A stretch of DNA of 64,000 bases from Labia minor (Eukaryota; Arthropoda; Insecta; Dermaptera; Spongiphoridae). Of the stretch, positions 902 through 61,889 are shown piece after piece (the first letter of the stretch is position 1; every line of letters begins with the position of its first letter). The stretch spans positions 41,939,787-42,003,786 of the forward strand of contig OY720346.1 of NCBI GenBank assembly GCA_963082975.1, in the 5' to 3' direction. The notes under the pieces are model-generated. The model was not told where the DNA came from. It saw nothing but the letters and a program-made list of their open reading frames with translations, and ran no database searches. The position numbers and the translations under genes were made by a program.

Positions 902-907
902 TTTATA

Positions 908-960
<53 letters not shown>
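902..960. repeat. (AT)n microsatellite
   Basis: Nearly pure alternating AT with a few AC/GT interruptions. Similar AT tracts occur at 1629-1668, 18127-18172, 19928-19951, 31152-31187, 31902-31921, 31958-31981 and 33890-33916, as expected for such an AT-rich genome. Confidence 0.9.
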
Positions 961-1018
961 TATAATAAAATAAATTATACAATAAATTATGATAAATTTA
1001 TCTTGAATTCAATTTTTT

Positions 1019-1096
1019 ATTGAGAGATTGATTTTTATGAAAGGTAATTATTTGTTAATTAGCTTCTCATCATAACCATGCTTGTCCACATTGAAC
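1019..1096 (+). repeat. Direct repeat, copy 1 (partner at 3216-3292)
   Basis: About 77 bp beginning ATTGAGAGATTG and ending CTTGTCCACATTGAA is repeated in the same orientation at 3216-3292 with one obvious mismatch. Flanks differ on both sides. The unit is not recognised. It could be part of a dispersed repeat or the ends of a 2.2-kb insertion. Confidence 0.7.
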
Positions 1097-1549
1097 GTAC
1101 AGTCTAACCCTTTCTAATCCGAGAAGCAAAGATATGTGAGTTGGCCTTGTTTAACTAAGCCATAAATACATTGCCTTCCTGGATATATATACATTTGGTA
1201 CTTAGCCTCCTCCAGTTTGACTCAAGAGTTAGTTTAAATGGATTAGACCCTGTGTGGTTAGAATAAAATGGTTTGGGAAATGTATTGGTGGGGGAGAGAA
1301 AGAGAGAGAGAAGAGGAGCGGGTGGAAAAGGGAGAAGGGAAACATGTACTCCAAACATGTGCCTAAAACTATCCCATCAAATTATATTATTTAATTCAAT
1401 GAAACATTTAAATTCATTTTCTGAAAGGAGATAGTAAGAATTATTTTGATTGGTTTAATTTAACATTAATTTTGGAATTATTTTTATATCATTATGAATT
1501 ACTAATTATTTATTGAATATAATAATATATAATTGTCAGCGATATATAT

Positions 1550-1624
1550 ATTGGTCGGTGAAAATGATATGATTGAAACTCTTCTGTTAAAGCGCTTTCA
1601 ATTGAAATGATTTTTATTTTCTAT

Positions 1625-1672
<48 letters not shown>

Positions 1673-1770
1673 GCCTATGGTATTTGCATTTAATAATAGA
1701 AAATAAAAATCATTTCAATTGAAAGCGTTTTAACAGAAGAGTTTCAATCATATCATTTTCACCGACCAAT
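1550..1770. mobile_element. Foldback MITE with 78-bp arms
   Basis: The left arm 1550-1627 and right arm 1693-1770 are reverse complements with about one mismatch, separated by a (TA)n spacer. Arms begin ATTGGTCGGTGAAAATG. The arm end GGTCGGTGAAAA resembles the HINE2 terminus, and HINE2 sequence follows directly at 1771. This may therefore be an inverted duplication of a HINE2 5' end rather than an independent transposon. Confidence 0.75.
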
Positions 1771-1916
1771 GAAGGTATTATTTTCACACCAAATTTCACA
1801 TATGGAGATTTTTTACATATTGTGATAAAATTTGGTATATTTACTTAATGCATCAGTAGCATGAATTCATGAACTTTTGGTATATATCTGGACACCGGAA
1901 GTGGCAGTTTACAAAG
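1771..1916 (+). mobile_element. HINE2 fragment (5' half)
   Basis: It matches the HINE2 copy at 14565-14810: the block with ACACCAAATTTCACAT, then GGTATATTTACTTAATGCAT, then CCGGAAGTGGCAG. The microsatellite and 3' end are missing. Confidence 0.7.
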
Positions 1917-2047
1917 TATTAACTTTATATTCATTGTCGGAAAATATTTCACTTAAAATATAGTAGTAATTAATAATTGAGTAATTAGACTAAAAATAAA
2001 AAGCACGATAATATAATTTAGTCATTTTAATTCAAGTTTTAATTTTT

Positions 2048-2663
2048 TTACTATCTCGCCAGAGATAGTATTGCGATCACGAAAATTTTCGATGTTGAGA
2101 TTTTGATGTTTTTATACGTTTTGAAGGTTCCTGAATCATTTTCACTAAGGTTGAGAAAAATGTCTGTGTGTGTGTGTATGTGTGTGTATGCGTGTGTGTA
2201 TGTATGTAGACAAGATTACGCAAAAAAGGTTTGAGCTAGAATGATGAAATTTGGTACATGGACATTATTCATAATTCATAGTTTTCTATCAACTTTTGAG
2301 AAATGTAGCTCAACCGGAAGAGGGTCATTACCTACAACGTTTTGATTTTTTTCCTCTAAAGTGACCGTAAAAATAAAAATATATGTTTGATAATTTTTCA
2401 CATGATTAATAATTGTATAAAACTGCTATATATAGAATTTCAGCTTGATTGAAATGCTGAAAGTACCAGAATTAATTTTTTAACACTGCAAATCTCACGC
2501 GCCAACACGTGCCATGGTGCCATCAATAAAAAGCCAAACATGCGCTGGTTTAATATTTATTATTTATAATTTATAATTAATTAAATTTAATTTAAATATA
2601 ATATATTATGTTATTTAATCCAATTCAAATTGCGAGATAGTCGAGTGGAGACACTCCAGCTAA
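2048..2663 (+). mobile_element. HINE1, complete non-autonomous helentron-like element
   Basis: The element runs from TTACTATCTCGCC to ACTCCAGCTAA. Subterminal inverted repeats are ACTATCTCGC near the 5' end and GCGAGATAGT near the 3' end. An internal (TG)n tract lies at 2163-2210. The 3' hairpin GAGTGGAGACACTC sits 7 nt before the end. The 5' end also folds (CTATCTC-GCCA-GAGATAG). This is the arrangement known for DINE-1/helentron-associated elements. There is no ORF, so mobilisation would need a helentron helicase supplied in trans. Its ends agree with those proved by the empty-site comparison for the copy at 47032-52699. Confidence 0.85.
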
Positions 2664-2695
2664 TTTTATATACTAGTACATATAATATATATATA

Positions 2696-2760
2696 TAATT
2701 CTGTTTGGAAATTAATTTATTTCAAATCGTCGGTCGGTTATGTCTCGCCACAGCTCATTT
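2696..2760 (+). mobile_element. HINE2 3'-end fragment
   Basis: Contains the block GGAAATTAATTTATTTCAAA followed by GTCGGTCGGT and a decayed 3' hairpin region (GTCTCGCCACAGCTC). It matches the 3' end of the HINE2 copy at 14541-15176. Confidence 0.6.
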
Positions 2761-2763
2761 TTC

Positions 2764-3215
2764 TATATTCTCATGTAATATTTAATTTTATTTTAAAAAT
2801 ATTTATATATTTTTTTGTTTGTTTTGTTTTACATGAATAAATTTTAAAATTGAATAGATAGAGAGGGAGAGGGCGTCATTAAGAATGTTTACCTCGAGAG
2901 TTAATGATCCCAGGGGTTTTTGATGTTTAATTCAAACCCAAAAGGGGACGGCGAAAACAGACACAGAGACATTTAGCCAGTCAGCTAGCCATCTCTACAG
3001 AAGCGAGAGGAGATGCATGCAACTTTGTTAATAAGTAAATATTTGAGTAACGTGACAGCCTTATTGCTTTGGCACAAGTCTGACACAACTCAATATTCCT
3101 GAAATATTATTAAGAGGTTGAAATTAAAATCGATCATGAATTAATAAAGTCTTGTAGGATAGAATTTAATATTACAATAAAATATCAGACTAATTTAAGG
3201 ATCATTGAAAAATTA
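2764..3215. other. Unique intronic sequence
   Basis: AT-rich, with a slightly GC-richer patch at 2860-3020 (GAGAGGGAGAGGGCG, then a purine-rich run). No ORF or splice structure is convincing. I see nothing further. Confidence 0.4.
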
Positions 3216-3292
3216 TTGAGAGATTGATTTTTATGAAAGGTAATTATTTGTTAATTAGCTTCTCATCATAAACATGCTTGTCCACATTGAAT
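3216..3292 (+). repeat. Direct repeat, copy 2 (partner at 1019-1096)
   Basis: See the entry at 1019. The homology starts at ATTGAGAGATTG and ends at CCACATTGAA, after which the two copies diverge. Confidence 0.7.
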
Positions 3293-3424
3293 TGTGATTA
3301 TAATAATAGCAACATAATATATTTTTTTTTGTAATTTTAAATTAAAAATTCTATTAAGCTAAAATAGACTTGCATGTAAAGCTACAAATATACCCTTTGA
3401 GAAAAATTGAGAGGAGCTGGAACA

Positions 3425-3695
3425 AAAAAAAACCTCTGAATTTTGTACATCGTACGCAAGGACAACGCCTATCAAGTCGGATATATTAATTAGGTTTTCT
3501 AAGATCAGTAGAAAGGGCCTTACAACCTTTACTTTGATTTTCTTAATCGGAGGCTGCTTATCAAATCTCTTCACAATTTTGATTCCGGAGGCTGGGTTGA
3601 CTCCGTCCCAACGACCCCAGATAGAGAAATGCCCTTGCCATCTTCGGGATCACGAGAATGTGAGCCAACCATGTTGCCTCCTACCCTGTGACGCC
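3425..3695 (-). mobile_element. tRNA-type SINE, family 1, decayed copy
   Basis: On the minus strand it runs from GGCGTCACAGGG to a T-rich 3' end (CAGAGGTTTTTTTTT). It aligns along its length with the better copy at 25904-26190 and the partial copy at 10965-11195. Shared landmarks, read on the plus strand, are GGACAACGCCTATCAAG and GGAGGCTGGGTTGACTCCGT. The B-box region is degraded here. Confidence 0.75.
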
Positions 3696-3703
3696 TTACT
3701 GGA

Positions 3704-4138
3704 ACAAAATAGAGTAAACAATTTTGTTTTTATTTATTTATATTATATAAAATAATATTAAACAAAGATATAGATGCACTTGATAAATAATAAGAGAAAT
3801 TTTAATTTATAATTAATTTGATAATTGATTTTTTTATTTCACGCTTTTTTTTAGTTTCACATCGTGTCCTGTCGTTAAATCTTGCAAGGTGAATTTGACC
3901 CACTTTCCAATGTTCGAATGAGCTGAAATTTTGCATACATATGTAATTCCGATGAAAATGCAATATTCAGGTTCATCCCAGGTTATAGGTGGCCTCGGAT
4001 GTATTATTAATTAATTAATAATAATATTATTATTATTATTAATTATTAATAAATTAATTAATTCTTAACACTATAACCTGAAATAATAAACCTGGCGAAA
4101 TTTCTGTCAAGACTAAAAATTAGAAACTAAAAAAAATT
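3704..4138. other. Intronic sequence with an imperfect hairpin
   Basis: CAGGTTATAG near 3989 pairs with CTATAACCTG near 4072 around a (TTA)n spacer. The flanking text near 3908-3960 (GAGCTGAAATTTTGCATACA) reads like a decayed transposable element. The family is not identified. Confidence 0.4.
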
Positions 4139-4472
4139 TATGAAAACACACTTTTATTTAAATGCACTAAAAAGGAGAAAAAACACACAACGATTTTCTT
4201 ACAATTAATCATATCTAACAAATGAAAAGTGTGGGCGCCAAACGGAAAGGAAAATAATACGAAGGACATTTTATTGTACATACACAAATCTTTCTGTTTT
4301 TTCCTTTTCCACTATACTTGGTATCTATGTCTATTTGAAGTTTTCGTTTTTCTCTGCCCATGCTTTCATTTTTTAGATATGATTAATTGTAAGGATATCG
4401 TGGTGTGTGTGGAGAAATTATTTTCTCCTTTTTAGTGCATTTAAATAAAAGCGTGTTTTTAAAAAGTTTTTT
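4139..4472. mobile_element. Foldback MITE, about 110-bp arms
   Basis: The left arm starts near 4139 (ACACTTTTATTTAAATGC, then CTAAAAAGGAGAAAA). It is the reverse complement of the right arm ending near 4472. The inner arm portions (TTACAATTAATCATATCTAA) also pair, giving an almost full-length hairpin of about 330 bp with a short loop. No ORF; the family is not recognised. Confidence 0.75.
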
Positions 4473-5206
4473 TTTATTTTATTTTTTTTTATTTGTTTTG
4501 TTTAGAGAAAATCTAGATTGATTGATCATCAAGAAAATCATAAAGTATTCTCAAAATGAAATTTTATGGTTTTTTTTCAACGCTAGTTTGGTGAACATTG
4601 CTTTAGCTTTCCTATATTTCGTTTTATTACTAACCTTTGTTTTTTAGTTTTTATAAAAGTTTAAGCATAAACTGCACTTTATAAATCTTCCTTTATATAT
4701 ATTTATATAGGGGGGGGGGGGATATTGTCAAATAAACTATCTGACCTAATGGATAAACTATTTCATTTGATAAATATGAGTTATCGATCAATCTCTTTTA
4801 TGGCAAACACATTTTTCTATTCTACTTTATTGAAAGAGAACTTATATTTTTTTTTCTTAAATATATTCCCACTCTTTTTTTTTATTTAGTACCAAAATGT
4901 AACGCTTAAACATTTCTTTCTATTGGCACAGAAACGAAGTTAAATTAAGTTCCGACCTGTCAAATTGCCATTTCCTTATCTTAACTGCATTCTCTATTAT
5001 CTATAAAAAAAAGTGGGGCTTTTTTAACAAAGAAAACTCAACGCATTTGAACGATGAGATCTAATCTTCATCCACAAAACCTCACACTAAATTATTTTCT
5101 TTTATATATTATAATTAAACTAGAAATAATAGTAGTTTAAAAATTTAAGAAAAAGATGATTTAGTAAAGAGGAAAAATAAAAACTTTTATCCAAAATATT
5201 GTTAAG
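4473..5206. other. Unique AT-rich intronic sequence
   Basis: Contains a poly-G run near 4710-4721. No gene, RNA or repeat is recognised. Confidence 0.4.
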
Positions 5207-5327
5207 CAGTGATGTATTGGTAGAATAAGAAGTAAGGGAACGCAAAGTGGAAGCAAAAAAAGTCCTATTTTTAGGTAAAAGGTAAGGGAACGTCGTTCCC
5301 CCGCGTTCCCCTCCCAATACACCACTG
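5207..5327. mobile_element. hAT-type MITE, short copy
   Basis: Begins CAGTGATGTATTGG and ends CCAATACACCACTG, so it has 14-bp terminal inverted repeats with one mismatch. Flanking 8-bp duplications are TTGTTAAG (5199-5206) and TTTTTAAG (5328-5335), one mismatch. The 8-bp duplication and CAGTG terminus are typical of hAT. It is an internally deleted relative of the 260-bp copy at 33437-33696. Confidence 0.85.
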
Positions 5328-5335
5328 TTTTTAAG

Positions 5336-6304
5336 TTTTGAAATAAATTAAGATTATTGTAATTAAAATTGAACTTTATGAAACGTTTCATATAAATACA
5401 ATGTAACATTGAAAATAAATTTTAGTTAGGCTATGTTTATTGTCTAAATACTAACAAACCATTACAAACATTATATTATGAGTCAAGTAATACGCAAATA
5501 TCTTTTGGTTAGGTTATCAAAATATTAAATAAATATTAATATAATACCTGAAATATACAAGTACATAATATATATTTATCGTCATTGTAGTATGTAGTGA
5601 TTACTTTTGCAAATATATATTAATTCCAAATTTTATATTGACTTCAATCTGGTTAATCAAGTGTTTATATTTTATGTAATTGAATAAAACAACTAAATGA
5701 TTGAAATAATAATAATAATAATAAACATTAATTATAAAATTATATATTAAATAGTTTTGTCAGAATTGGCAATTTCAAATATTTAATATATTTTGCAATA
5801 TCAAAATTAAACAAATTAAATTATATTAAATTTCACAAATAACAACAACACATTGGTCGGACCAGGTCAAGAGGATATTTTTAACTTTTTTTTTTGTTTT
5901 ATAATCCATTTCAAACATAAAATTAATTTAATAAAAATTTCCATGACATATTTTTATTAAAAATATCCTTACTTAATATTTCATATATTATTTAGAAAAT
6001 GAATTACTAACAAAATACTTGCTGAATATTATTTTAAATTTTATTATGTAGATTAATCTCCTGATTATTATGTAATGTATTCCAACTCATCTGTAATTTA
6101 TCTCCTTTTTGATATATGAATGCGGAAAATGAAATAATAAATGAAATAAATAAATTTTAACAAAAATAGTTTTATAATTAAAATATATATTTTATATAAT
6201 AACAGGAAAAATGAGAAAATTTTAAATAATTAAATCCAATTAGATTCATTATTCAATCACTTTTATTGTTTTTTTTTATTAAAAAATGCTAATTTGTATA
6301 TTAT
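5336..6304. other. Unique AT-rich intronic sequence
   Basis: No coding exon, RNA gene or recognised repeat. A short (AAT)n run lies near 5707-5724. Confidence 0.4.
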
Positions 6305-29257: not shown

Positions 29258-30590
29258 TGTATGATGAATTTTGATAAAACTTTACCAGTAGTTTCCATTT
29301 TGATTCCAAACAAACTTTCCTCAAGAAGTTTACAAAATAAAAAAAATCGGGAGTGTCCTCCCCTAGACTTTCCCGCATATAAATAGGTATAAAGAGTTGT
29401 GAATGAATATTTAGAATGTGTAAACTTGGTATTGATTAAGAGCCAGTTCGTGTTAGTTTATTGATGTCAAATTTGATATTTGGTAACATTTATATATATA
29501 TATATATAGAATAAAGTGCTACTTCCGGTTAACTGATATTTTAAATGTAAATAAACAAACTAATTAATTTAAATTATAAAGTAAAATGGTTTAACACTAT
29601 TATATATATTTATAATTTACACCTAACACTACTTGTATAGGTAAAATGTCACTTCCGGTAGTCAGATCGTATCTGAGTTTTTTTCATATTTTTAAATCCA
29701 TATACAAAATATGAAGCAAATATCTCGAAGCAAACTGGTACTTTGCTTGAAAGGTAAACGCAACCAGTGTAGGTAAAGTATCACTTCCGGTTAACCAATT
29801 TTGACGAAATTTTGATAGAAATCTACAAACTGTGAATAATACCAAATGAATAGTACCAAATTTCGAAGTCCTAGCATGATTAGTTTCTGAGTAAATTCGC
29901 TCACTGACAAACATTACATACATCTATACATCCATACATACATACACACACACACAGACATAATTCGAAAAATGGTATTTTCCGACTCAGGGAGGTCTAA
30001 AACGTCAAGATCTATCGAAATCTCGAAGTCGAAATTTTTGACGATTCCAATACTTCCCTTATACGAAGTATGCGGGAAAGTAATTATTAAAGTTTGCATA
30101 TAAACTAGTTATGAATGAGCAGCCATTTAATAATTTTGTATTGACTAATACCCTAATTATTAACTTATTCACTTATTTTTGGTTTTTATAAGTTCGGTTT
30201 GGATATAGGATAATTATTAAATTAATTAATTTTTTTAATCTTCTTATATCCAAACTGAACTTATAAAAACCGAAAATTAGTAGAACTATCTGGTGGTGAA
30301 ATAATAAAACATGGTAGCTAAATAAAAAATCAATAAATTATATAATTTTCCTATATCCAAACCGAACTGAACAAAAGCCTGAAAATTAGTGAAGCCCTCT
30401 TTTGGACAAATGAATAAACCATAAATATGGTAGCAAAATTGTAAATATGCAAATATGCTAATATGCAATATTTAATAATTTTTATCTCGTAAATTAGAGG
30501 CGACCGAGAAATATTGCATAAGGAAAGTTTCTTGGAATTAAAAAAGGAATCTACTGGTAAAGTTTTATCAAAATCCATCATACATAAATA
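29258..30590. mobile_element. Foldback element split by HINE3
   Basis: The left arm 29258-29344 (GATAAAACTTTACCAGTAG) and right portion 30083-30590 (ending in the reverse complement, CTACTGGTAAAGTTTTATC) match the intact foldback at 24929-25469, including CCATAAATATGGTAG in the centre. The interruption at 29345-30082 is a helentron-like element, giving a natural filled site. Confidence 0.8.
29345..30082 (-). mobile_element. HINE3, complete non-autonomous helentron-like element
   Basis: On the minus strand it starts TTACTTTCCCGCATACTTCG near 30082 and has an internal (TG)n/(TATG)n tract at 29932-29957. It ends with GCGGGAAAGT and the hairpin GGGAGGACACTCCC near 29349-29362. Subterminal inverted repeats are ACTTTCCCGC/GCGGGAAAGT. 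The block before the microsatellite (TTCGA.TTCGAGATTTCGAT, GGAAAATACCATTTTTCG) is alignable with the equivalent block of HINE1, so the families share ancestry. Confidence 0.82.
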
Positions 30591-40890: not shown

Positions 40891-42524
40891 AATCAAAATT
40901 CTTCATAAAAAAAAAATGGCTTTTTATTTTTTCTAATACATTTACCGTGTATATAATATATAGAGATTCTTTATTTCATTAGATTGAAGATTATTTATTA
41001 GTAATTCATTTAATAAATATCTAATCGTTATTTGAAATTTATTTAATTATTATTTTAGAATTTATGATGCTTAATCCAAATTTAATTCGCAGCATGGAAC
41101 TTACGATCTGGACTGATATTTAGTTGGACCCCTCCAGCGACCTGAACATTTTTTCAAACTTCTTATTTAAACGGATTTTAATATTTTGATTATTATTATT
41201 AATTAATGTATTATATTTGCATCCCGCCTCGTTTTTGTATTAGATATTGTATCAATATTTTTTATATTTAAAATATTTTAAAATTTTTTAATTAATTTCG
41301 AAAGAAAATTAAAAATATATTTATACAATTTTTGCTAGTATAATAAAATAAGATCTAATGAAATATATTTATTTTTATCGTCAATTCACAATGTGTCATT
41401 TATTATATTATTAATTTGTGAAATGATTACAAATTTTATGTAAAATCCATTCTCTATTCGTTTAGATCAAAAATAATATATTTAATATTTAATATATTGA
41501 ATATATTTAATACATACTAGAATCAACTCTTGAATATTTTTTTAAACAAGCGGACTATGGACATCTGTATTATTTATTTTTAATGTTTTGACAAAGTCCC
41601 TTTTGTTGTTTTCTTCTTTTGTATTATGTATTGAGAAAGGTAAGTTTTGGAAAGGGCCTTTTGTTGTATTATTATTGTTTCTCCTTTTTAAGTTAACAAA
41701 ATACAAAAAATACAAGCGCCCAACGTCTTTAGTTGAATATGTAGCAATTCATCCATAAACTTTGTTAGGCTTATAGAAAAATTATTTTATTCTTTAGTCC
41801 ATGAGAAAAACGTTATTTTTTAAATTTAGTTTCATAAATTGATAGAAGTTTGTAGGAATTTAAATAATTAACAATATTTTTTTTTAGATAGAACTCATGA
41901 ATGTTTTTCCAATCAGAACCGAATTTATATAATTTATGATATTTTTAATAAAATTATATTTTCTTAAAGTGGACTATACATTAATATTATCTATATTCAA
42001 AGCTTTGAAAGTTTTCTTTTTGTTGGTTTGACCTTTTTTTTCATTCTTCTCAAGGAAACAAAATTCAATTGTTAATGAAATAGGAAACAAGTAAAAAATA
42101 AATAGTTTCATAGATTTTTCAAATTCCTGAAAAACCAACCATTGTGTGCAAGTGATAGTTTCTAGAAATGGCCAAAATCTTGAATTCTATCAACATCTGA
42201 AAAGATTGCCACGTGATGTGATAAATTTTTTTAAAAATCTATTATTTCTTTTTAATCGTGATGTGTGAGAAAGAAAACTTTCTTGTTTTATTAAGCTGGC
42301 CAGGAGATAATTTGGACTTAGAAATTGTAACCTATTTTAACGATAAGAGCAAGAGCATTTAGTAAATTAGAAATATTGTTGTTTGAAATTATGAAACAAT
42401 TTATTAAACTCAAGCTGTAGCTTGTAAACAAATGGACGAAATGTCATGATACTTCATACATAATTTGAATTTAATTTGAATTTCCTATTATAAAATTATA
42501 AAGAATATTAATTAAAAATAGTTT

Positions 42525-44225: not shown

Positions 44226-44332
44226 TATAAATATTTTTAATATAGATAATATAAAATACTCCTATAAATCTTAAATATTAAAATAACTTCACTTTTATAA
44301 TGATAATAAGAATAATTTATAAACATTTATTT

Positions 44333-45694
44333 TTAATACACAAAAATTTCGATTATACTGGTACAAGGTAACAATTTTTTAAAATTTTGACCCCTATCTC
44401 GAGGATCCAAAATAGATTGACAGGGCATTGTTTTATTTTGAATTATCAATGTATGAAGACGCAAGTTTTTTTTAAATGAACGAAAATTAATTTTAATCTT
44501 TGTGCCCTGAAGATTTAATTGATATAATGTTTTACATTGATAAATGTATGGAAGTACTTTATTACACATTAATGAACATCCACGCAAAAATAAAATATTT
44601 AATTTTTTTATTTTATGGATATCCTCTAGATCACTATATTTCAATAATTTACAGTACTCGAATCGAAGATCTGTTAAATTTTCAAACTGATTAAGCATTT
44701 TCAAGGCATTTTTCTGGACATCTTTGCAAGATTCTATTTGCAAATTTGTTAATGGTAATCTTTTTTCAAGAAATACGTTAACTAGTTGTTCTTGATTGAT
44801 TGAGGATTGAATTAGAATAAGCGATAGTTTTTTCAATTTACGTAATGGTGCAATTTCAAAATAACTTCTGAGAATTTCTTCTGGACCATCGTAGACAATT
44901 AGTAGGTGTTCTAAATTTTCTAATTTAGACAAATAAGCTGGCCAAGTATTATTTATTTTATCCAAACTAATTCTTAATTTTCTTAAATTATTGAAGTTAA
45001 CTATTGTTTTCAAGGAATTAAGACTTGGTATTGGGAATAAAGTTAATGTTACATGTTTGTTGATATTACGAAAGAGTAAAGATTCATTGTTTAGTTGTAA
45101 CTTTTTTAAATTTGGAAAAAAATAATTAATAGCCCATAGAAAAATATCAGGAAAAACCTCATCATATTCTATAAGGATACTAATTTCTTCTACCTTATTG
45201 AAAGTAGGACAAGTTGGTAATTTACCTTCTTCTATAAGACATTTTAAATTTAATAGATCTTTTATTATTTTTTTAATTTGTCTAGGTTTGTTCAAAATTT
45301 GAAAATTAATTATTTTTAATCGTGGCATGGGAAAATTTTTTATAAACTTAATTAAAAATTCATAATTCAACTCACTTACATTAACAGTTTCTATTAAAGA
45401 ATAGAATCGTCCAAAAAATTGTTCAGCATAGAAGGAATGCGGACTCCAGAATGGTATTGGAGGTAAATAAGAGACAATCCCAGTCTTGATAATCACATCG
45501 TAATAATACGGATCTTCACTAAAAATAAGCAATTGTTGTATTGTTGAATATTGAAGAATATTCCCTACTAATTCTGCCGGTAATCTCTTCATATGTTGGT
45601 GTAATTCTTGATCACAAGTATAATTAACAGTTGTTTTATTGACAGGAGACAGCTTCTTAGCAGAATGGTTGGTTTTCAAATTTTGGGATGGCAT
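44333..45694 (-). CDS. F-box/leucine-rich-repeat protein, paralog B (453 aa)
   Basis: Intronless ORF aligning with paralog A over its whole length. The F-box at residues 38-70 has R to K and D to N changes; LRRs follow. Length differences are in-frame indels (for example SSINQEQL against SFTEQL, and IIQNKTMPCQS against IIQKLPCRS). The C-terminus differs (EIFVY against EIFN) because about 41 bp of A's 3' flank is missing in B. The N-terminal 165 residues hold few differences, while residues about 165-300 are dense with substitutions (KKLQLNNESLLFRNINKHV against KKLHINKEFLLFCNINKLV). In-frame indels and preserved ORFs argue that both copies are functional. Confidence 0.85.
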   Translation of the reverse strand: MPSQNLKTNHSAKKLSPVNKTTVNYTCDQELHQHMKRLPAELVGNILQYSTIQQLLIFSEDPYYYDVIIKTGIVSYLPPIPFWSPHSFYAEQFFGRFYSLIETVNVSELNYEFLIKFIKNFPMPRLKIINFQILNKPRQIKKIIKDLLNLKCLIEEGKLPTCPTFNKVEEISILIEYDEVFPDIFLWAINYFFPNLKKLQLNNESLLFRNINKHVTLTLFPIPSLNSLKTIVNFNNLRKLRISLDKINNTWPAYLSKLENLEHLLIVYDGPEEILRSYFEIAPLRKLKKLSLILIQSSINQEQLVNVFLEKRLPLTNLQIESCKDVQKNALKMLNQFENLTDLRFEYCKLLKYSDLEDIHKIKKLNILFLRGCSLMCNKVLPYIYQCKTLYQLNLQGTKIKINFRSFKKNLRLHTLIIQNKTMPCQSILDPRDRGQNFKKLLPCTSIIEIFVY

Positions 45695-46030
45695 GATTAA
45701 AAATCAAAAACAAAACAAATTGCAAAATACACTCAGTTAGCAAGAGTGCTAATGATGACTTGATGAGATGCAGAGAGCAAATGATAGCTGAAGGAAATTG
45801 AGGGTGGCGTTTAAGTCGAAAAAAGGTGTGTCAAAAGAGACAACCAATCAGAAGACCCGTTAAGTAAAAATAAGAAGAGGGGAGTTCGTACCTTTTTCCT
45901 ACCTCCCTATAATATTTTTTCAATATTTTGATTTTATTAATTTTTTATCTCTCTTTGTAAAGACGAAATTATAACTTTAAAATGATTTTAAATGTAATCA
46001 ATAAAAAGTCAGAAATTCTAATTTAAAAAA
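45695..46030 (-). promoter_or_regulatory. Shared 5' flank of paralog B
   Basis: Counterpart of 40556-40890 with only scattered substitutions. In copy B a HINE1 sits at its distal edge (from 46032), about 340 bp upstream of the ATG, so distal control may differ between the paralogs. Confidence 0.4.
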
Positions 46031-46031
46031 A

Positions 46032-46493
46032 TTAGCTGGAGTGTCTCCACTCGACTATCTCGCAATTTGAATTGGATTAAATAACATAATATATTATATT
46101 TAAATTAAATTTAATTAATTATAAATTATAAATAATAAATAATAAATATTAAACCAGCGCATGTTTGGCTTTTTGTTGATGGCACCACGTCACGTGTTGG
46201 CGCGTGAGATTTCCAGTGTTAAAAAATTAATTCTGGTAATTTCAGCGAATCAATCAAGCTGAAATTCTATATATAGCAGTTTTATACAATTATTAATCAT
46301 GTGAAAAATTATCAAACATATATTTTTATTTTTACGGTCACACTAGAGGAAAAAAAATCAAAACGTTGTAGGTAATGACCCTCTTCCGGTTGAGCTACAT
46401 TTCTCAAAAGTTGATAGAAAACTACGAATTTTGAATAATGTCCATGTACCAAATTTCATCATTCTAGCTCAAACCGTTTTTGCGTAATCTTGC

Positions 46494-46533
<40 letters not shown>

Positions 46534-46666
46534 ACACACACACACACCCACAGAGACATTTTTCTCAACCTTAGTGAAAATGATTCAGGAACCTTCAAAA
46601 CGTATAAAAACATCAAAATCTCAACAAATTTTCGTGATCGCAATACTATCTCTGGCGAGATAGTAA
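46032..46666 (-). mobile_element. HINE1, complete, reverse orientation
   Basis: Plus-strand boundaries are TTAGCTGGAGTGTCTCC and AGAGATAGTAA. An uninterrupted (CA)n/(TG)n tract lies at 46496-46550. The empty site in copy A is at about 40890-40896, within an A-run, consistent with insertion between two like bases without duplication. Shared with the other copies: GACCGTAA, CCGGTTGAGCTACATTTC, CACGTGTTGGCGCGTGA. Confidence 0.9.
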
Positions 46667-47173
46667 AAATTCTTCATAATAAAATGGCTTTTTATTTTTT
46701 CTAATACATTTACCGTGTATATAATATATAGAGATTCTTTATTTCATTAGATTGAAGATTATTTATTAGTAATTCATTTAATAAATATCTAATCGTTATT
46801 TGAAATTTATTTAATTATTATTTTAGAATTTATGATGCTTAATCCAAATTTAATTCGCAGCATGGAACATACGATCAGGACTGTCATTTAGTTGGAGGGG
46901 AGCGACCTGAACATTTTTTCAAACTTCTTATTTAAACGGATTTTAATATTGTGATTATTATTATTAATTATTATTAATGTATTATATTTGCATCCCGCCT
47001 CGTTTTTGTATTAGATATTGTATCAATATTTTTACTATCTCGCCAGAGATAGTATTGCGATCACGAAAATTTTCGATGTTGAGATTTTGATGTTTTTATA
47101 CGTTTTGAAGGTTCCTGAATCATTTTCACTAAGGTTGAGAAAAATGTCTGTATGTGTGTGTGTGTGTGTATGT

Positions 47174-47217
<44 letters not shown>

Positions 47218-47422
47218 TATAGCGAAGGAAATACATTTACGTATCATTAGGTTTATAAGGTTTGCCTAGTATGTCGGACTCAAGATGTTAATACCGACTA
47301 AAACCTCCGCTTTCCTCCAACCTCAATCCCTCACGGGAACCGCCGTTAGGCATTACTTCGTGGGGGGAGGACATAGCTAATGCTCTTCCTTCAGGTAGCT
47401 AAGGTGTTATTTTTCCTTTCTC

Positions 47423-50404
47423 CTAGTTGTTATCATTAGCTCTTTTTCTTTCTATGTAACGCAAGTCTGTAAGAACTTGTGTTGCAAATATGCTGATTGC
47501 GTTCCAGGCAGCCTCTGATGACAACATTGCTTCCACTATAGACTCTGGATAGATTCCTGTGTTTATAGATTTCTCTACATCATCTCGCTGTTGAGAAAAA
47601 CGTATACACTCAAAGAAAACGTGTTCCGCATTTTCTATAACTCCTGGACAGGACGGACACTCTGGAGAATCGTCATGCTTGAAACGGTGAAGATACTCAC
47701 GAAAACAGCCGTGCCCTGACATCATCTGTGTTAGGTAATAGTTGACCTCGCCGTGACTCCGGTTCAGCCAAACATCAATCCTTGGTATTAGACGGTGCGT
47801 CCATCTACCCTTTTCCGCGGCATCCCACTGTAACTGCCATCGTGAAATACTATGTCGCCGTTCTTCTGCTCTCAGTTCTTCGGTGCTCATTATGTTTGAC
47901 CTCTTCCGATGGTAGAGGTTCCGTCTTTCTTCAGCCAGAACTCTAAGTGGCAGAGTTCCTGAAATGACACACACCGCTTCCTCTGATATTGTTCGGAAGG
48001 CGCTGGCCACTCTTAACGCGCTTAACCGATATACCGGACCAGCTCTTCTCCGCGATTCCTGGATCTCAAGTGCGTCAGCCCAAATGGATATACCATACGT
48101 GAGGACCGATGTAACCACTGATGATAGCAATAACCTCCTCGTGTGCTTTGGGCCTCCGATGTTAGGCATAAGTCGTGATAGGCTAGCTACTACTGCTGAT
48201 GCTTTAGCACTCACGTGTTCCACCTGCTGCTTAAACTTGAGCCGAGCATCAAGCATCACTCCCAAATATCGGATATAAGGTTGTGATGTGATCTCTTGTA
48301 GGCCGACTTTCAGTTTGATGGTCTCTATCACTTTCCTGCTTGTAATAAGTACAGCCTCCGTTTTCTGTTTAGCCAGTTGAAGGTTCGCTGTATTCATCCA
48401 CCGGTTAACTTGCTCGAAGGTGGTATCGAACATGTGGTTGATCTCATCAAGGTGTTTGGCGACCACTACCACGGCTACATCATCCGCATATGCTACGAGT
48501 TTAACACTCCTTGGCAGATTCAGTCTCAACAACCCGTCATACATGATATTCCAGAGAAGTGGACCCAGTACAGAACCTTGTGGTACTCCTCCAGTAACAT
48601 CATACTCCTTTGCACCGTTCTTCGTGTCGTATTTCAGGACTCTATTTGTAAAGTAGCTAGCCACTATCCTTCGCAGGTATCCTGGTACGTTCTTCTCTTC
48701 GAGGGCCTGCATGATGCAATCCCAGTTGGCGGAGTTGAAGGCATTTTTGATGTCTAACGTTGCCACCAGACAATATTTCTTCGTTCCACCCTTCCATCTG
48801 GTACCAGAAATTGCGTCCTTGGCCGTACTGACAAGCAGATCGATCGCGTCCAGAGTTGATCGACCCCTTCGAAAGCCATACTGATTGTCCGCCAGAAGTG
48901 GGTCAACAATTGCTTCGATTCTCTGATGGATAATGCGCTCAAATATCTTACCCGCCGTGTCCAGCATGCAAAGTGGACGGTAGGATGACGGTTCTTCCGG
49001 TGGCTTTTTTTTCCCTTTTGGAAGTAGTACCAGCCGTTGTTGTTTCCATTTCCTTGGAAAAGTCCCCTCCTTAAGGCAGGTGTTGTAGACGTCAAGGAAC
49101 AATATTGGCTCTGCCTTTATAGATGTTTTTAAGGCAATATTAGGGATTCCGTCCAATCCCGGCGCTTTATTATTCCCGACGCGGTTGCATGCCTCCATCA
49201 GTTCGTCTTCTGTGATAGGTGGAATGTCATCCAGCTCGTCCCGAGCCAACAGGTAGTTGAAAACGCGTTGTTGTGGGAACAGCGCAGTCACGATCTTTCC
49301 CAACAGTCGAGGATAAGTTGGTGACGGCATTGGCTGGTATTTTAGGTGCGTCATGACTACCCTGTAAGGTCTGCCCCACAAGTCTCTGTCCACCTCATTG
49401 ATGAGATCTTTCCAGCAGTTCTTCTTGCTATCCTTGATGGCTTTGTTTAAGCATCGACGAGCTTGTTTGTACTCTGCGACTAGCTCCGCCGAGTTAGGTC
49501 GCCGATAACCACGCTGAGATATTCTCCTTTTCTTGAGACATTCCTTACGGAGGGCGCTGATATGATCGCTCCACCAATAAACCGAGGATCCCCAATTCAT
49601 GCAACGTTTACGGGGCATGCAAACGTCACAAGCCCGGGCCACTCTCTTCATCAGGTCCTTGGTCATTTCTTCTGCGGATCCAGCTATGATCGGTTCACTA
49701 TTTAAGGCAGTTACTAATACACATGGGTCAAAAGATTTCACCTTCCATCCGATGGTGTTAACTTTCCTGGTTGTTCTTCTAGAATTCTGGCCGTTGGGCA
49801 TCTCCCAGAGAATCGCATTGTGGTCACTGGCTGTGTAAATATCCATCACCCTCCATTTGTAGTTACCTCGGGCGAGGCTGCTGCTGACAAAGGTGAGATC
49901 CACAATAGAACTTGCGTCGCCCTTGGTGTAAGTTGGCGTGTTGCCACTGTTGAGCAGAACCACATCCAGTGCAGTAAAGGCTTCCAGGAGTGCTCTTCCT
50001 CGTGCGTTGGTGTGCCTGCTTCCCCAGTCCACTGCCCAGGAGTTGAAGTCTCCGGCTATTGCCACTGGATGGTGTTGCTTCGCGTCCTCGGACAGCCGAT
50101 CCAAGAAGTCACTAAATTCAACAATAGAGAGGCCGGGTGGAGCGTAGCAGCTGTAAAAACGAATGCCATTCACCGACGCCGCCACAAAGCCGGCGCTGCC
50201 ATTGCTAACGACACTCCCGAAGGGAATCCTGCCACAGGACCATATGACAGCTTTGGTGGTGCTATCAGTCTCCCATGGTTGACCGCTTAGGTGCTTATAC
50301 GGTTCTGATAAAAGCACAAGGTCAAGCTTTAGCTCTCGTACCGTCTGCATGAGCAAATGATGTGCAGCCTCGCAGTGGTTGATGTTTATCTGCAGTATTC
50401 TCAT
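47423..50404 (-). CDS. R1-clade ORF2: endonuclease-reverse transcriptase (993 aa)
   Basis: Performs target-primed reverse transcription. The APE-type endonuclease occupies residues 1 to about 220: QININHCEAAHH at the start, catalytic-site Glu in LLSEPY, AGDFN at 117-121, SDHN at 193-196. The RT domain at about 420-720 has LPKGKKKPPEEPSSYRPLCM, the GFRRGRST segment, TLDIKNAFNSANWD, GGVPQGSVLGPLLWNIMYDG and the active-site YADD at 639-642. The C-terminal zinc motif CPSCPGVIENAEHVFFEC (916-933) is the CCHC typical of the R1 clade. All key residues are present and the frame is unbroken. The start ATG overlaps the ORF1 stop (ATGA), which suggests termination-reinitiation. No RNase H domain is seen. 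Confidence 0.95.
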   Translation of the reverse strand: MRILQININHCEAAHHLLMQTVRELKLDLVLLSEPYKHLSGQPWETDSTTKAVIWSCGRIPFGSVVSNGSAGFVAASVNGIRFYSCYAPPGLSIVEFSDFLDRLSEDAKQHHPVAIAGDFNSWAVDWGSRHTNARGRALLEAFTALDVVLLNSGNTPTYTKGDASSIVDLTFVSSSLARGNYKWRVMDIYTASDHNAILWEMPNGQNSRRTTRKVNTIGWKVKSFDPCVLVTALNSEPIIAGSAEEMTKDLMKRVARACDVCMPRKRCMNWGSSVYWWSDHISALRKECLKKRRISQRGYRRPNSAELVAEYKQARRCLNKAIKDSKKNCWKDLINEVDRDLWGRPYRVVMTHLKYQPMPSPTYPRLLGKIVTALFPQQRVFNYLLARDELDDIPPITEDELMEACNRVGNNKAPGLDGIPNIALKTSIKAEPILFLDVYNTCLKEGTFPRKWKQQRLVLLPKGKKKPPEEPSSYRPLCMLDTAGKIFERIIHQRIEAIVDPLLADNQYGFRRGRSTLDAIDLLVSTAKDAISGTRWKGGTKKYCLVATLDIKNAFNSANWDCIMQALEEKNVPGYLRRIVASYFTNRVLKYDTKNGAKEYDVTGGVPQGSVLGPLLWNIMYDGLLRLNLPRSVKLVAYADDVAVVVVAKHLDEINHMFDTTFEQVNRWMNTANLQLAKQKTEAVLITSRKVIETIKLKVGLQEITSQPYIRYLGVMLDARLKFKQQVEHVSAKASAVVASLSRLMPNIGGPKHTRRLLLSSVVTSVLTYGISIWADALEIQESRRRAGPVYRLSALRVASAFRTISEEAVCVISGTLPLRVLAEERRNLYHRKRSNIMSTEELRAEERRHSISRWQLQWDAAEKGRWTHRLIPRIDVWLNRSHGEVNYYLTQMMSGHGCFREYLHRFKHDDSPECPSCPGVIENAEHVFFECIRFSQQRDDVEKSINTGIYPESIVEAMLSSEAAWNAISIFATQVLTDLRYIERKRANDNN

Positions 50405-51843
50405 TTCCGTCTAATGGTCATCTTCTTGAGTGCTTCTTGGTATACCGGGCATCTACTTGTGCCGGCATAGTGAGCAATATCCTCTGTGCCGAGCTGTTCA
50501 GCACACAATGCACATTTAGCTGGTTTATCGCAATTGACCAACTTGTGACCCTCCTCTCCACACTTGATGCAGAGTTTGGATCGGTCTTTTCCGCCTTTAC
50601 ACTGGGCAGCCCGGTGTCCAAAATGCCAGCATTTGAAACATCGGATTGGCTTTATTATCGTTCGAATTCGACAGTTTACCCAGCCAATCCTGATCTTGCC
50701 GTGTTCTCCGATCACTTTCGTCGCTGTTGCTGCCGCCAATACCACCGACGCAATTTGTGTTCCTCTAAAGGCTTTTCGGATTTTTATAGCCTCTACTGTG
50801 ACACCACAATCGCCTCCGGCTGCCATTTTCAGAGCATCCAGAATATCGTCTCTTGTTGTGATATCGTCGAGGTCACGAATTTCCAGGTTTTCTTCTGGTC
50901 CCGTATTGATGACTTTTGCATCATCTTGGAGTATGCCCGCGATGGTTTCCTGCAAGGCTTTTCCATTGTCAGCACTGCCTTTTAACAGCGTAATAAGCAT
51001 GTCTCCTGCTGCTGTCTTGCGAATTTTGTCGACAGTGGCGCTGACCTGCTCCGGGCGCACGCCTGCCTTGATCCGGGTGAGTATTTCGCAGTACTTTGTT
51101 TTGTCTGTCGGGCGAATGATCAGCACGTCAGGTCTCATTGCTGCTCTTTTTGGGTTCTTCTGGTTCCGCTTAAATGGAGGCGCTGGAGGTTTATCTGGAG
51201 GCTGTTTTTTGCGCTCCTTTCTCCTATCCCCTCTCGATTGCACCATCACCCAGCCTGGACTCTTGTTCTGCTTAACGGAGTTTTGAATAGGCTCTTTATC
51301 CTCTACATACTTCTTGGTAGGAAGGCTAGGTCCCGAGTCCTTCAGCTTCTTTGTCGTCTGTTGATTCGAGCTACCAGGAGAATTAGTTTTTCTTTTTTCT
51401 CCCCTTACAGTAAGGGCTTCTTGAGCTGCAGATTCCTTAAAAACCAGACACTTGTTTGTTTTGTCTGGGGATGTTTGTGTGCTCATTTTCTCTGTAGTAG
51501 GGCGTGACTGAGATCGTGGTATCTTTTCTTCTATATCCTTCAACCGGCCGTACATGCTTCTGATTGAGCGTGCCATTTTCTTTATCTCACCATGTACGTT
51601 ATGCCTAGGCTCAACAAACTCCAACAGTTCGAAAATTTTCTTCCCGAGGTCTCCAAGAACCTCCTTTCTCTCCTCTTCACTTGTAGCAATAAATGCTACA
51701 GGGGCCAAGTTTTCCACCCCTGCAGCACTGCGGTCGCCAGCTAACGACATCCCGGGGCCCGCTTGCTCACCCCTGACGGACGCCGGCACTGGGCATCCGA
51801 ATCCCTGCGCCGTAACCTCTCCTTCCCTTTCGTCGTCTCTCAT
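50401..51843 (-). CDS. R1-clade ORF1: gag-like nucleic-acid-binding protein (480 aa)
   Basis: Packages the element RNA into ribonucleoprotein and helps target it to chromatin. The N-terminal half is charged and low in complexity. The C-terminus holds three zinc knuckles: CFKCWHFGHRAAQC (402-415), CIKCGEEGHKLVNC (425-438) and a longer third one starting CALC at 444 with HYAGTSRC. A globular region at about 235-400 (DVLIIRPTDKTKYCEILTRI, IRKAFRGTQIASVVL) lies before the knuckles, where gag proteins of this clade carry RNA-binding folds. It ends IRRK with TGA inside the ORF2 start. The first ATG (51843) is the likely start; later in-frame ATGs cannot be excluded. Confidence 0.92.
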   Translation of the reverse strand: MRDDEREGEVTAQGFGCPVPASVRGEQAGPGMSLAGDRSAAGVENLAPVAFIATSEEERKEVLGDLGKKIFELLEFVEPRHNVHGEIKKMARSIRSMYGRLKDIEEKIPRSQSRPTTEKMSTQTSPDKTNKCLVFKESAAQEALTVRGEKRKTNSPGSSNQQTTKKLKDSGPSLPTKKYVEDKEPIQNSVKQNKSPGWVMVQSRGDRRKERKKQPPDKPPAPPFKRNQKNPKRAAMRPDVLIIRPTDKTKYCEILTRIKAGVRPEQVSATVDKIRKTAAGDMLITLLKGSADNGKALQETIAGILQDDAKVINTGPEENLEIRDLDDITTRDDILDALKMAAGGDCGVTVEAIKIRKAFRGTQIASVVLAAATATKVIGEHGKIRIGWVNCRIRTIIKPIRCFKCWHFGHRAAQCKGGKDRSKLCIKCGEEGHKLVNCDKPAKCALCAEQLGTEDIAHYAGTSRCPVYQEALKKMTIRRK

Positions 51844-53905
51844 GTTTGGTTTATCTTCGGGGTTCCTTCCCCTAGCGCATTGGCATCGGTGACTATGCTT
51901 TTACGAGGGGTGGAGCTCGAACCACCACCTCAACCCCCATCCTTGGAGGGCCGATGGGTGGGTGTTTGCACTTATTTGATGGCGGTGCATACTCGCCATG
52001 TCTAGAATCCGTCATAGGCATTTGTGGTATTTTCTAGAGCCTAACTTTTACCCGAAAATTAGGCCCGCCACAGCCTGATGGAGCCTATCGCCTCGGTCCG
52101 GCACTGCTTATTCAGTATTCGCAGCTGGCCTACATATCTGCAGGTCGTTCCCCTATCCGCCACCTGGGGACCCGCCCGGTAGCTGAGGCCCGCCCCGGGT
52201 GTATGTGTGTGTGTGTGTATGTGTGTGTGTATGTATGTAGGCAAGATTACGCAAAAACGGTTTGAGCTAGAATGAAATTTGGTACATGGACATTATTCAA
52301 AATTCATAGTTTTCTATCAACTTTTGAGAAATGTAGGTCAACCGGAAGAGGGTCATTACCTACAACGTTTTGATTTTTTTTCCTCTAAAGTGACCGTAAA
52401 AATAAAGATATATGTTTGATAATTTTTCACATGAATAATAATTGTATAAAACTGCTATATATAGAATTTCAGCTTGATTGATTCGCTAAAATTACCAGAA
52501 TTAATTTTTTAACACTGCAAATCTCACGCGTCAACACGTAACGTGGTGCCATCAACAAAAAGCCAAACATGCGCTGGTTTAATATTTATTATTTATTATT
52601 TATAATTTATAATTAATTAAATTTAATTTAAATATAATATATTATGTTATTTAATCCAATTCAAATTGCGAGATAGTCGAGTGGAGACACTCCAGCTAAT
52701 TTATATTTAAAATATTTTAAAATTTTTTAATTAATTTCGAAAGAAAATTAAAAATATATTTATACAATTTTTGCTAGTATAATAAAATAAGATCTAATGA
52801 AATATATTTATTTTTATCGTCAATTCACAATGTGTCATTTATTATATTATTAATTTGTGAAATGATTACAAATTTTATGTAAAATCCATTCTCTATTCGT
52901 TTAGATCAAAAATAATATATTTAATATTTAATATATTGAATATATTTAATACATACTAGAATCAACTCTTGAATATTTTTTTAAACAAGCGGACTATGGA
53001 CATCTGTATTATTTATTTTTAATGTTTTGACAAAGTCCCTTTTGTTGTTTTCTTCTTTTGTATTATGTATTGAGAAAGGTAAGTTTTGGAAAGGGCCTTT
53101 TGTTGTATTATTATTGTTTCTCCTTTTTAAGTTAACAAAATACAAAAAATACAAGCGCCCAACGTCTTTAGTTGAATATGTAGCAATTCATCCATAAACT
53201 TTGTCAGGCTTATAGAAAAATTATTTTATTCTTTAGTCCATTAGAAAAACGTTATTTTTTAAATTTAGTTTCATAAATTGATAGAAGTTTGTAGGAATTT
53301 AAATAATTAACAATATTTTTTTTTTAGATAGAACTCATGAATGTTTTTCCAATCAGAACCGAATTTATATAATTTATGATATTTTTAATAAAATTATATT
53401 TTCTTAAAGTGGACTATACATTAATATTATCTATATTCAAAGCTTTGAAAGTTTTCTTTTTGTTGGTTTGACCTTTTTTTTCATTCTTCTCAAGGAAACA
53501 AAATTCAATTGTTAATGAAATAGGAAACAAGTAAAAAATAAATAGTTTCATAGATTTTTCAAATTCCTGAAAAACCAACCATTGTGTGCAAGTGATAGTT
53601 TCTAGAAATGGCCAAAATCTTGAATTCTATCAACATCTGAAAAGATTGCCACGTGATGTGATAAATTTTTTTAAAAATCTATTATTTCTTTTTAATCGTG
53701 ATGTGTGAGAAAGAAAACTTTCTTGTTTTATTAAGCTCGCCAGGAGATAATTTGGACTTAGAAATTGTAACCTATTTTAACGATAAGAGCAAGAGTGTAA
53801 ATTAGAAATATTGTTGTTTGAAATTATGAAACAATTTATTAAACTCAAGCTGTAGCTTGTAAACAAATGGACGAAATGTCATGATACTTCATACATAATT
53901 TGAAT

Positions 53906-55048
53906 TTTCAGAAAATTCATATCAAAAAGATTCCTCATCTCTCTGATGAGTGGCACAATAAACTACCTATTGAACGATAAATTGACATGATTTCTAGTTA
54001 CAATTTGAACAAAATTTGGTATGATGGTATGGAAAGTTCTTTATATTATGTATAATATTATAAATTATTTCTCTTGTAATTACTTCGTATTAAACAAACT
54101 TCCAAGTTTAAACAATTTAGACCAGGGATGCACAGCCTGTAGTCCGTCCTTGATTTTTTAAGAGCCTCAAGGAAATAAATCGGTTTATATATATTCAAAT
54201 AAATATTAATTAACGGTAATAAATAGTAAGTAATAACATAACAATCTTTTTTTTGTGTATTTTTTACATAAAGTTTAGATACTTAACTAAGAATATAGAA
54301 CTATCAACTTTTAATTAGATGTATAAGGCAATAAGAAGATAGACTACATGGGTTGCCTTTTATATTTAGTGATGCAATCTGGCAACTGACTGCTCTATCG
54401 TAAAGTTTGATATTTTTTAGGTTATACATACTCAGAATGTTTTGACATACGAGCGCTATTTGTTTTGTTAAGAGTAACTTAATAGAATCCATTGATGTGC
54501 TGTGCGCCCATTGATATTACAAGATCGTCCTGTGACCTATCGTTAGATTCAGACAACCACTAATGCCTAAATTAGTGGGACCAGTATACATTCAATTGCA
54601 TTCTTAAATATTCTAAAAAATTTAATCAACCGGATGAGATAGGTTGATATAGAGGCCATTTCAATTACTCGATAAGAACGCGACCACAAATTTTTCTGTC
54701 ACTCTATATATACAAATATAGAATATTGTACAAAATATAACTAATCAAAATCTTGTGTTTTACACCATGCTTATTAAGCCGTCTCCACAAATGCGGTGTT
54801 TGTCAAATAACGAATATTTACCAAATACCGAGCACCAAGTTTATGTGCTTGTATTGAATATTCATCTTGTTAATATTATTAATATATAAACATTACCTCC
54901 TTAATTTGGTTTATTTAAGTTAATTGAATAATTTATTTAATTCAATTTAATTCATAATAATTATAATAAATATATTTTAAAAAAATTACTTCAATAATAT
55001 TTACTTAATATAATTATAATCTTTATTTTTGTTTTATTCTATTTACAA
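53906..55048. other. Unique intergenic sequence beyond duplication B
   Basis: 54120-54180 (CAGGGATGCACAGCCTGTAG) resembles a decayed hAT terminus. 54290-54720 is less AT-rich and has no partner in the window. The 62-codon minus ORF there (54304-54492) shows no recognisable family. Confidence 0.35.
54778..54870. mobile_element. Solo end of the TTA-flanked MITE
   Basis: GCCGTCTCCACAAATGCGG, then ATATTTACCAAATACCGAGC and ACCAAGTTTATGTGCTTGTA match the right end of the MITE at 20995-21468 in reverse complement. The other end is missing. Confidence 0.65.
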
Positions 55049-55390: not shown

Positions 55391-55562
55391 TTTTTGATTT
55401 TCATAGAAAGTAAGTAAACATGAGTAAATAGAAAAGTTTAAATAAATATAGTATAAAAATGAAAATTATATTAGACTTTTTGATTTTCATAGAAAGTAAG
55501 TAAACATGAGTAAATAGAAAAGTTTAAATAAATATAGTATAAAAATGAAAATTATATTAGAC
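55391..55562 (+). repeat. Perfect tandem duplication, 86-bp unit x 2
   Basis: Units 55391-55476 and 55477-55562 are identical as read (TTTTTGATTTTCATAGAAAG ... TTATATTAGAC). Perfect identity means a recent duplication or an assembly artefact. Confidence 0.9.
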
Positions 55563-55825
55563 TTGAAAAATATTATTGCAATATCAATAAAGGAAGGTTA
55601 AAATGAATTCGGTAATTGAAATATTCATGGAGATATTTTGAAATTCAATTCCACATTTGTTTAAACATTATTACCAAAAGAAAACATTACTACACACACA
55701 ACAACTAAATAAAGAATTAAATGGTCATTTTTATAAGAAATTAATGTTTGTGAAATTGATGTCTTTATATTAACAATAAAAACATTTTTTTTTAAATAAG
55801 CTGGATTAGTTTTTAAATTTAAAAC

Positions 55826-61858: not shown

Positions 61859-61861
<3 letters not shown>

Positions 61862-61889
<28 letters not shown>

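Follow-up and report, generated by a model that had tools for sequence, protein, structure and literature searches.

Here we describe a nested pair of transposable elements in the genome of the dermapteran Labia minor (assembly GCA_963082975.1, 604 Mb in 71 contigs). The pair lies in a 64,000-nucleotide stretch of contig OY720346.1 (positions 41,939,787 to 42,003,786 of the forward strand; 28% GC), hereafter the window, whose numbering is used throughout. At 47033-52699 an R1-type non-long-terminal-repeat (non-LTR) retrotransposon splits the (TG)n tract of HINE1, a non-autonomous Helentron-type element of ~630 bp on the plus strand; the locus was aligned to two other HINE1 copies and to an empty site, and its junctions are resolved to the base. 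Reading along the plus strand, a HINE1 arm on the tail side of the retrotransposon (47033-47148) is followed by a (TG)n tract (47149-47174, plus strand) that adjoins the 42-nt poly(A) tail (47175-47216, minus strand, a T run on the plus strand). The retrotransposon body, 4983 bp without its tail, occupies 47217-52199 on the minus strand and has the 5′ end CCCGGGGCGGG, with junctions common to other full-length copies. Against this 5′ end stands a (TG)n/(TGTA) tract (52200-52238, plus strand) and after it the other HINE1 arm, which runs to 52699. The original prediction, made from the letters of the window, placed the element exactly in the internal (TG)n of a HINE1, and we indeed found tract and HINE1 arm on both sides. 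An assembly artefact is unlikely, given like junctions at dozens of loci.

The retrotransposon carries two uninterrupted open reading frames (ORFs) on the minus strand, overlapping by ATGA. ORF1 (50401-51843, 480 aa) has two CCHC zinc knuckles by motif, at 402 and 425, and a third Cys/His motif by eye, and gave no match in a Pfam search. ORF2 (47423-50404, 993 aa) combines an APE-type endonuclease, a reverse transcriptase (YADD) and a C-terminal Cys/His motif, as identified by Pfam (PF14529, PF03372, PF00078) and by motifs, and its matches among solved structures (PDB) include the TRAS1 and R1Bm endonucleases. Two ORFs with CCHC knuckles in the first and APE endonuclease plus reverse transcriptase in the second are the features by which the R1 clade is recognised. 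The placement as R1-type is a prediction from domains, solved-structure matches and the names of relatives; the ORF2 tree holds only relatives from the protein search, a small number of which carry the name R1 in their source records, and no reference R1, Mino or Waldo. Among named relatives the closest to ORF2 comes from the sawfly Neodiprion lecontei, with 77% identity along its full length. ORF2 relatives that are 67-92% identical (sawfly, two Lepidoptera, other assemblies) form one clade, and horizontal transfer or contamination is possible. A pattern scan for ORF2 in a viral contig collection gave 11 pattern matches, none of them a relative, and an exact motif of the HINE1 arm gave 0 matches in the viral and 0 in the genome contig collection.

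The host element has the structure of a Helentron derivative. A palindromic subterminal repeat, ACTATCTCGCCAGAGATAGT, lies at its 5′ end (47034-47053, plus strand), with its inverted partner GCGAGATAGT at 52668; the latter and the hairpin GAGTGGAGACACTC lie close to the 3′ end (52668-52692, plus strand). These subterminal inverted repeats (subTIRs) at both ends and the hairpin near the 3′ end are present in three HINE1 copies of the window. The second copy (46033-46665, minus strand, by alignment) is unoccupied and has a long AC tract at 46496-46552, and the third (about 2041-2671, plus strand, by alignment) is likewise unoccupied; both align through the tract with the occupied copy. Furthermore, a segmental duplicate carrying neither of the two neighbouring HINE1s provides their empty sites: the segment 39057-42472 (plus strand) is repeated as 44229-46032 (91.7% identity), 46666-47033 (94.1%) and 52700-53907 (99.2%). 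The empty site for the HINE1 at 46033-46665 is at 40893/40895 and that for the occupied HINE1 at 41261/41262; judged from this paralogous segment, both insertion points are T-runs, with no duplication visible except of T's. Because the duplicate segment carries neither element, both nearby HINE1s most simply inserted after the segmental duplication, and the retrotransposon after its HINE1. The duplicated segment itself holds two paralogous ORFs (449 and 453 aa, no Pfam match), and the stepwise change in identity between its copies (91.7, 94.1 and 99.2%) could mean that part of it was converted or duplicated twice. Elsewhere in the window, an 86-bp unit stands in two perfect tandem copies (55391-55564).

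Next we examined where the retrotransposon resides in the rest of the genome. An ORF2 search of the 604-Mb assembly gave 46 scored matches from 4,385 first-look candidates; all copy counts are minimum figures. The matches comprise 34 close copies at 91-100% identity, 23 of which cover the full length of ORF2 with no stop codon, and 12 copies of a sister family at about 50%. We found that all 34 close copies are located in an AC or ACAT tract with a HINE boundary, on both sides in 32 cases and on one side in two. The host is HINE1 in 28 cases and, in the other 6, HINE-ACAT, a family with arms unrelated to those of HINE1. Insertions mostly outside microsatellites, which the original prediction named as evidence against itself, were therefore not what we saw; an AC/ACAY target, of the type used by Mino and Waldo, fits 34 of 34 close copies. 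The sister family shows the same arrangement, with 7 of the 7 copies read at the 3′ side lying in HINE tracts (5 HINE1, 2 HINE-ACAT). The element-on-element association that had been claimed thus extends to every copy read in both families.

Of the 30 close loci whose 3′ junctions were read, 23 have an AC tract leading to the HINE1 arm, and at 5 the HINE-ACAT arm is reached through ACAT or from the tract edge; the other four close copies have HINE1 as host. The remaining two junctions lead into a very long ACAT array followed by non-HINE sequence (L008) and into a long AC tract followed by non-HINE sequence (L016). At the 5′ junctions HINE1 was found at the AC-type loci including L016, and HINE-ACAT at the ACAT-type loci including L008, with some 28 bases between tract and element unread at L011. 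A HINE arm on one side only, with an unrelated 3′ side, suggests tract-mediated rearrangement at L016 and L008.

The junctions also bear on the mode of insertion. Poly(A) passes into the tract at 29 of 30 loci, the exception being L006, which ends early in the 3′ untranslated region with a short A run. Many copies are 5′-truncated and the copy at C4:1.488 Mb has an inverted 5′ piece, as expected for target-primed reverse transcription. Most junctions are pure repeat and hence uninformative on target duplication. At L018, which lies at a tract edge, ACAGAC is found on both sides, and interrupted repeats point to a duplication of 9 to 15 bp at L001, L003, L004, L012, L020, L022 and L025, whereas the same kind of reading gave none at L026 and L028; this evidence for target duplication is suggestive only. 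At L028 the truncated retrotransposon has the HINE1 tract with about 30 bp of left arm before it and a diverged left arm after it, which is not a simple target duplication and perhaps reflects template switching or recombination between HINEs.

The exact 3′ end of the element occurs 56 times in the genome, at 31 known loci and 25 new ones, and a pattern search adds one more; three known copies (L006, L022 and C6:10.93 Mb) lack this exact word, and the total is about 60 copies. A combined pattern (the 3′ end, then poly(A), CAYA and the HINE1 arm) matched at 20 places. Of the 28 known HINE1 hosts it recovers 9, since copies with long tails or tracts or with diverged arms escape it, and of the 26 new copies 11. 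Among the matches listed (up to C6:23.70 Mb; two match lists compared by hand), 17 of 19 new 3′ ends have the word CAYACAYA after the poly(A) within the permitted gap. The two without it are no evidence for another target, because nine known copies also fail on word or gap. The outer flanks of 25 compared hosts are unrelated apart from three pairs that have 41 to 166 bp in common, indicating that the insertions are independent.

Both kinds of tract are abundant, and a large part of them belongs to Helentron-type elements. In the window, all AC/ACAY tracts of at least 16 bp, four besides the occupied one, lie in or against HINE-type sequence. An unoccupied ACAT/AC tract of HINE-ACAT lies at 29936-29955 (plus strand), with the flanking arm ACAGACATAATTCGAAAAATGG. 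The (TG)n at 61861-61889, perhaps the third HINE family named in the original prediction, is adjoined on one side by HINE1-like sequence, as if it were an internally deleted HINE1 relative. Random sampling (80 kb, the first 20 stretches from a draw of 80, each of 4 kb; two ACAG tracts excluded) gave one AC tract, in HINE1, and in the flanks of copies, a biased sample, 7 of 9 other tracts lie in HINE-type elements (host tracts excluded, and two L001 rows dropped as already counted in the window). Combined, 12 of 14 other tracts are in HINE-type elements.

Genome-wide, 16,072 (CA)8+ runs end in CA and a non-C base. An exact 14-mer of the HINE1 arm lies within 30 bp of such a run at 5,782 places (control 0) and at 31-60 bp at 906, and a 9-mer of the arm lies within 30 bp at 7,511 (control 7). 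In such gap patterns the reverse strand is matched starting at the arm and the forward strand starting at the run, which makes the counts for the two strands not quite alike in kind. On C1 below 7.7 Mb, the 14-mer and 9-mer lists hold 68 and 97 places, of which 61 are shared. The estimated union is near 8,106 (50% of 16,072). A correction for diverged arms raises this to 52%, and inclusion of the 31-60 bp class to about 60%; the exact motifs give lower bounds, and the corrections are estimated from one chromosome end. The true HINE1 share of (CA)8+ runs is probably 60-95%. For (CA)12+ runs, the 9-mer alone gives 2,905 of 5,187 (56%). The region C1:0.34-1.1 Mb, perhaps subtelomeric, is dense in (CA)12+ runs, with the HINE1 arm by 9-mer on 1 of 34 listed against 56% genome-wide. 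Of the 4,184 ACAT tracts counted, all with one type of end, 2,360 stand directly against an exact HINE-ACAT arm. With about half of the (CA)8+ runs and these ACAT tracts abutting HINE arms, the idea that HINE amplification seeds the genome with targets finds support. Availability also roughly fits the split between hosts (28 to 6 copies, against about 7,500 to 2,400 arm-linked tracts), and with about 60 copies for thousands of sites the targets are far from full.

The use of families follows the tract they carry. As predicted, family matters: AC-tract HINE1 and ACAT-tract HINE are used, and 0 of 41 copies lie in the GTCC-tract HINE, which, with the abundance of GTCC tracts uncounted, argues for the tract and not for Helentrons as such. 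At L063, the HINE-ACAT host region also has a GGAC tract with GTCC-type HINE sequence (by eye), a case of nested or composite Helentron-type elements.

Accounting for these observations, we consider it likely that the R1-type long interspersed nuclear element (LINE) targets AC/ACAY tracts, that Helentron-type elements supply much or most of them, and that the HINE arms are probably unneeded. The endonuclease would nick the TG strand of an AC/ACAY microsatellite and prime reverse transcription there, with the poly(A) tail continuing into the CA strand. The junctions read show the target, the polarity, the tail and 5′ truncation, and the nicking step is what they imply. The HINE arms are probably not needed by the retrotransposon, because two host families with unrelated arms share the tract type and the 50%-diverged sister family behaves likewise. 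Helentron-type elements would have spread thousands of AC and ACAT tracts, amounting to much or most of the available targets, and nearly every copy would consequently come to lie inside one. Rolling-circle amplification of HINE, as expected from its family, would in this way build the niche of the retrotransposon.

We then weighed whether insertion into HINEs exceeds what the tract explains. If there were a true preference, the tract would be necessary and HINE context (arm sequence, chromatin or the replication state of Helentron DNA) would raise insertion over AC tracts of equal length. Several observations favour this and weigh against targeting of the tract as such. All 33 AC-type sites (28 close, 5 sister) are in HINE1, 32 of them by the left arm, which gives p about 1e-6 against a left-arm background of about 60% and p 0.03 against 85%. 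When only runs in 3′ flanks are taken, HINE1 accounts for 21 of 23 against 47% (p 1e-5) and for 13 of 15 against 56% (p 0.02). The HINE1 share varies along the genome, and at the start of C1 the left arm, as scored by the arm motifs, flanks only 20 of 66 listed forward runs. Non-HINE AC tracts do exist, two of them in copy flanks, yet 0 of 41 copies were read in a tract without HINE on either side. Finally, only one control removes the site-level excess, and its limits are wide.

That control rejoined the flanks of 29 sites and counted runs as in the genome. The resulting empty sites show HINE1 at 22 of 35 runs of 8+ repeats against 7,511 of 16,072 (63 versus 47%, p 0.06), and at 14 of 24 runs of 12+ repeats against 2,905 of 5,187 (58 versus 56%, p 1.0). 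The left-arm background furthermore overlooks runs distant from the arm, which makes the site-level excess doubtful. Were a sample made up of HINE1 alone to score as the hosts do (58-63%), the HINE1 share of the background would be about 74% for 8+ and about 96% for 12+ repeats, with limits from about 60 or 70% to 100%. The ratio of HINE1 arms at 31-60 bp to those within 30 bp is 8 to 16 among hosts and 906 to 5,782 genome-wide; the tracts of hosts may be longer and more interrupted than those of other HINE1s, in which case the implied shares would be too high. The tract is the only feature common to the two host families, and the other tracts are also mostly in HINE-type elements (12 of 14, against which 41 of 41 gives p 0.06). 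An early count of 18 of 22 versus 36% (L006 and L052 of 41 loci unparsed) was an apparent strong excess. It was set aside, as it leaves out runs that belong to HINE1 but lie at a distance from the arm where the tract is interrupted, like the run at 46496 in the window HINE1.

We therefore regard a true HINE preference as unlikely. A related and stronger proposal, that HINEs are a specific, near-obligate niche in which two R1-type families insert well above AC tracts elsewhere and whose amplification keeps microsatellites long enough to sustain both, is possible but doubtful. Targeting of the tract, with HINEs as its supplier, accounts for the data, and a preference beyond the tract is unproven. 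The genome-wide comparison called for by the original prediction, run in part, accordingly bore it out in that all scored copies are in HINE tracts and did not establish the excess over (TG)n tracts of equal length; association, seeding and family-dependent use stand.

Survivorship, in which insertion is uniform over AC tracts and selection removes copies outside transposons, in introns or near genes, would leave the same pattern, and strongly harmful copies could vanish fast; with nearest neighbours 98.7-100% alike the copies are recent and weak selection has had little time, so we find this improbable. Composite mobility, in which a single capture of the retrotransposon by one HINE was followed by rolling-circle spread of the two together, could draw on the high copy number of HINE1 and its recent mobility at the two empty sites in the window, and is hardly credible, as the hosts differ in family, arm divergence, 5′ truncation point, tail length and outer flanks, the last together with truncation points and tails ruling such spread out. 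Chance placement is ruled out by the like arrangement, on at least one side, at 34 of 34 scored close copies.

Several known systems resemble parts of this one. Waldo, a member of the R1 clade, targets ACAY repeats, and Tx1L of Xenopus inserts into Tx1D, recognising transposon sequence. Like Tx1L, the element described here is a non-LTR element inside another transposon; unlike Tx1L, its likely target is a simple repeat that the transposon carries. The two host families with unrelated arms speak against recognition of the host transposon in the manner of Tx1L; the per-run excess is non-significant on rejoined sites, with wide limits. Mino is described as an R1-clade element with an AC-repeat target in a passage citing Kojima and Fujiwara 2003 (PMC3124438). 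The likeness to Mino and Waldo is one of R1-type ORF structure and AC/ACAY microsatellite target. Passages on the fish element Togen describe a NeSL-related, (TG)n-specific non-LTR element of the restriction-like-endonuclease lineage (PMC4640811), alike in target specificity and unlike the R1-type element here in lineage. Microsatellites and transposons are mentioned as LINE targets in parts of two accounts (PMC4640811, PMC8869645), and 'other TEs' are among the targets listed for non-LTR elements in the latter (PMC8869645). The hallmarks given for DINE-1/HINE elements in a section of PMC4067079 (palindromic subTIRs, a 3′ hairpin, T-rich insertion without duplication and an internal microsatellite) are all present in HINE1, the difference being that here the microsatellite serves another element as target. 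In the passages available from the open-licence literature we found no report of Mino or Waldo AC targets inside Helentrons, or joining AC-specific LINEs with Helentron tracts.

Microsatellite-specific LINEs are usually viewed as exploiting a passive feature of the host, and here much or most of it would be the product of other transposon families. How many HINE copies there are and how far they have spread would then set the habitat of the retrotransposon, one genomic parasite being in effect the landing strip for another. With about 60 occupants and thousands of sites, this would offer niche construction between transposable elements in a form that can be counted.

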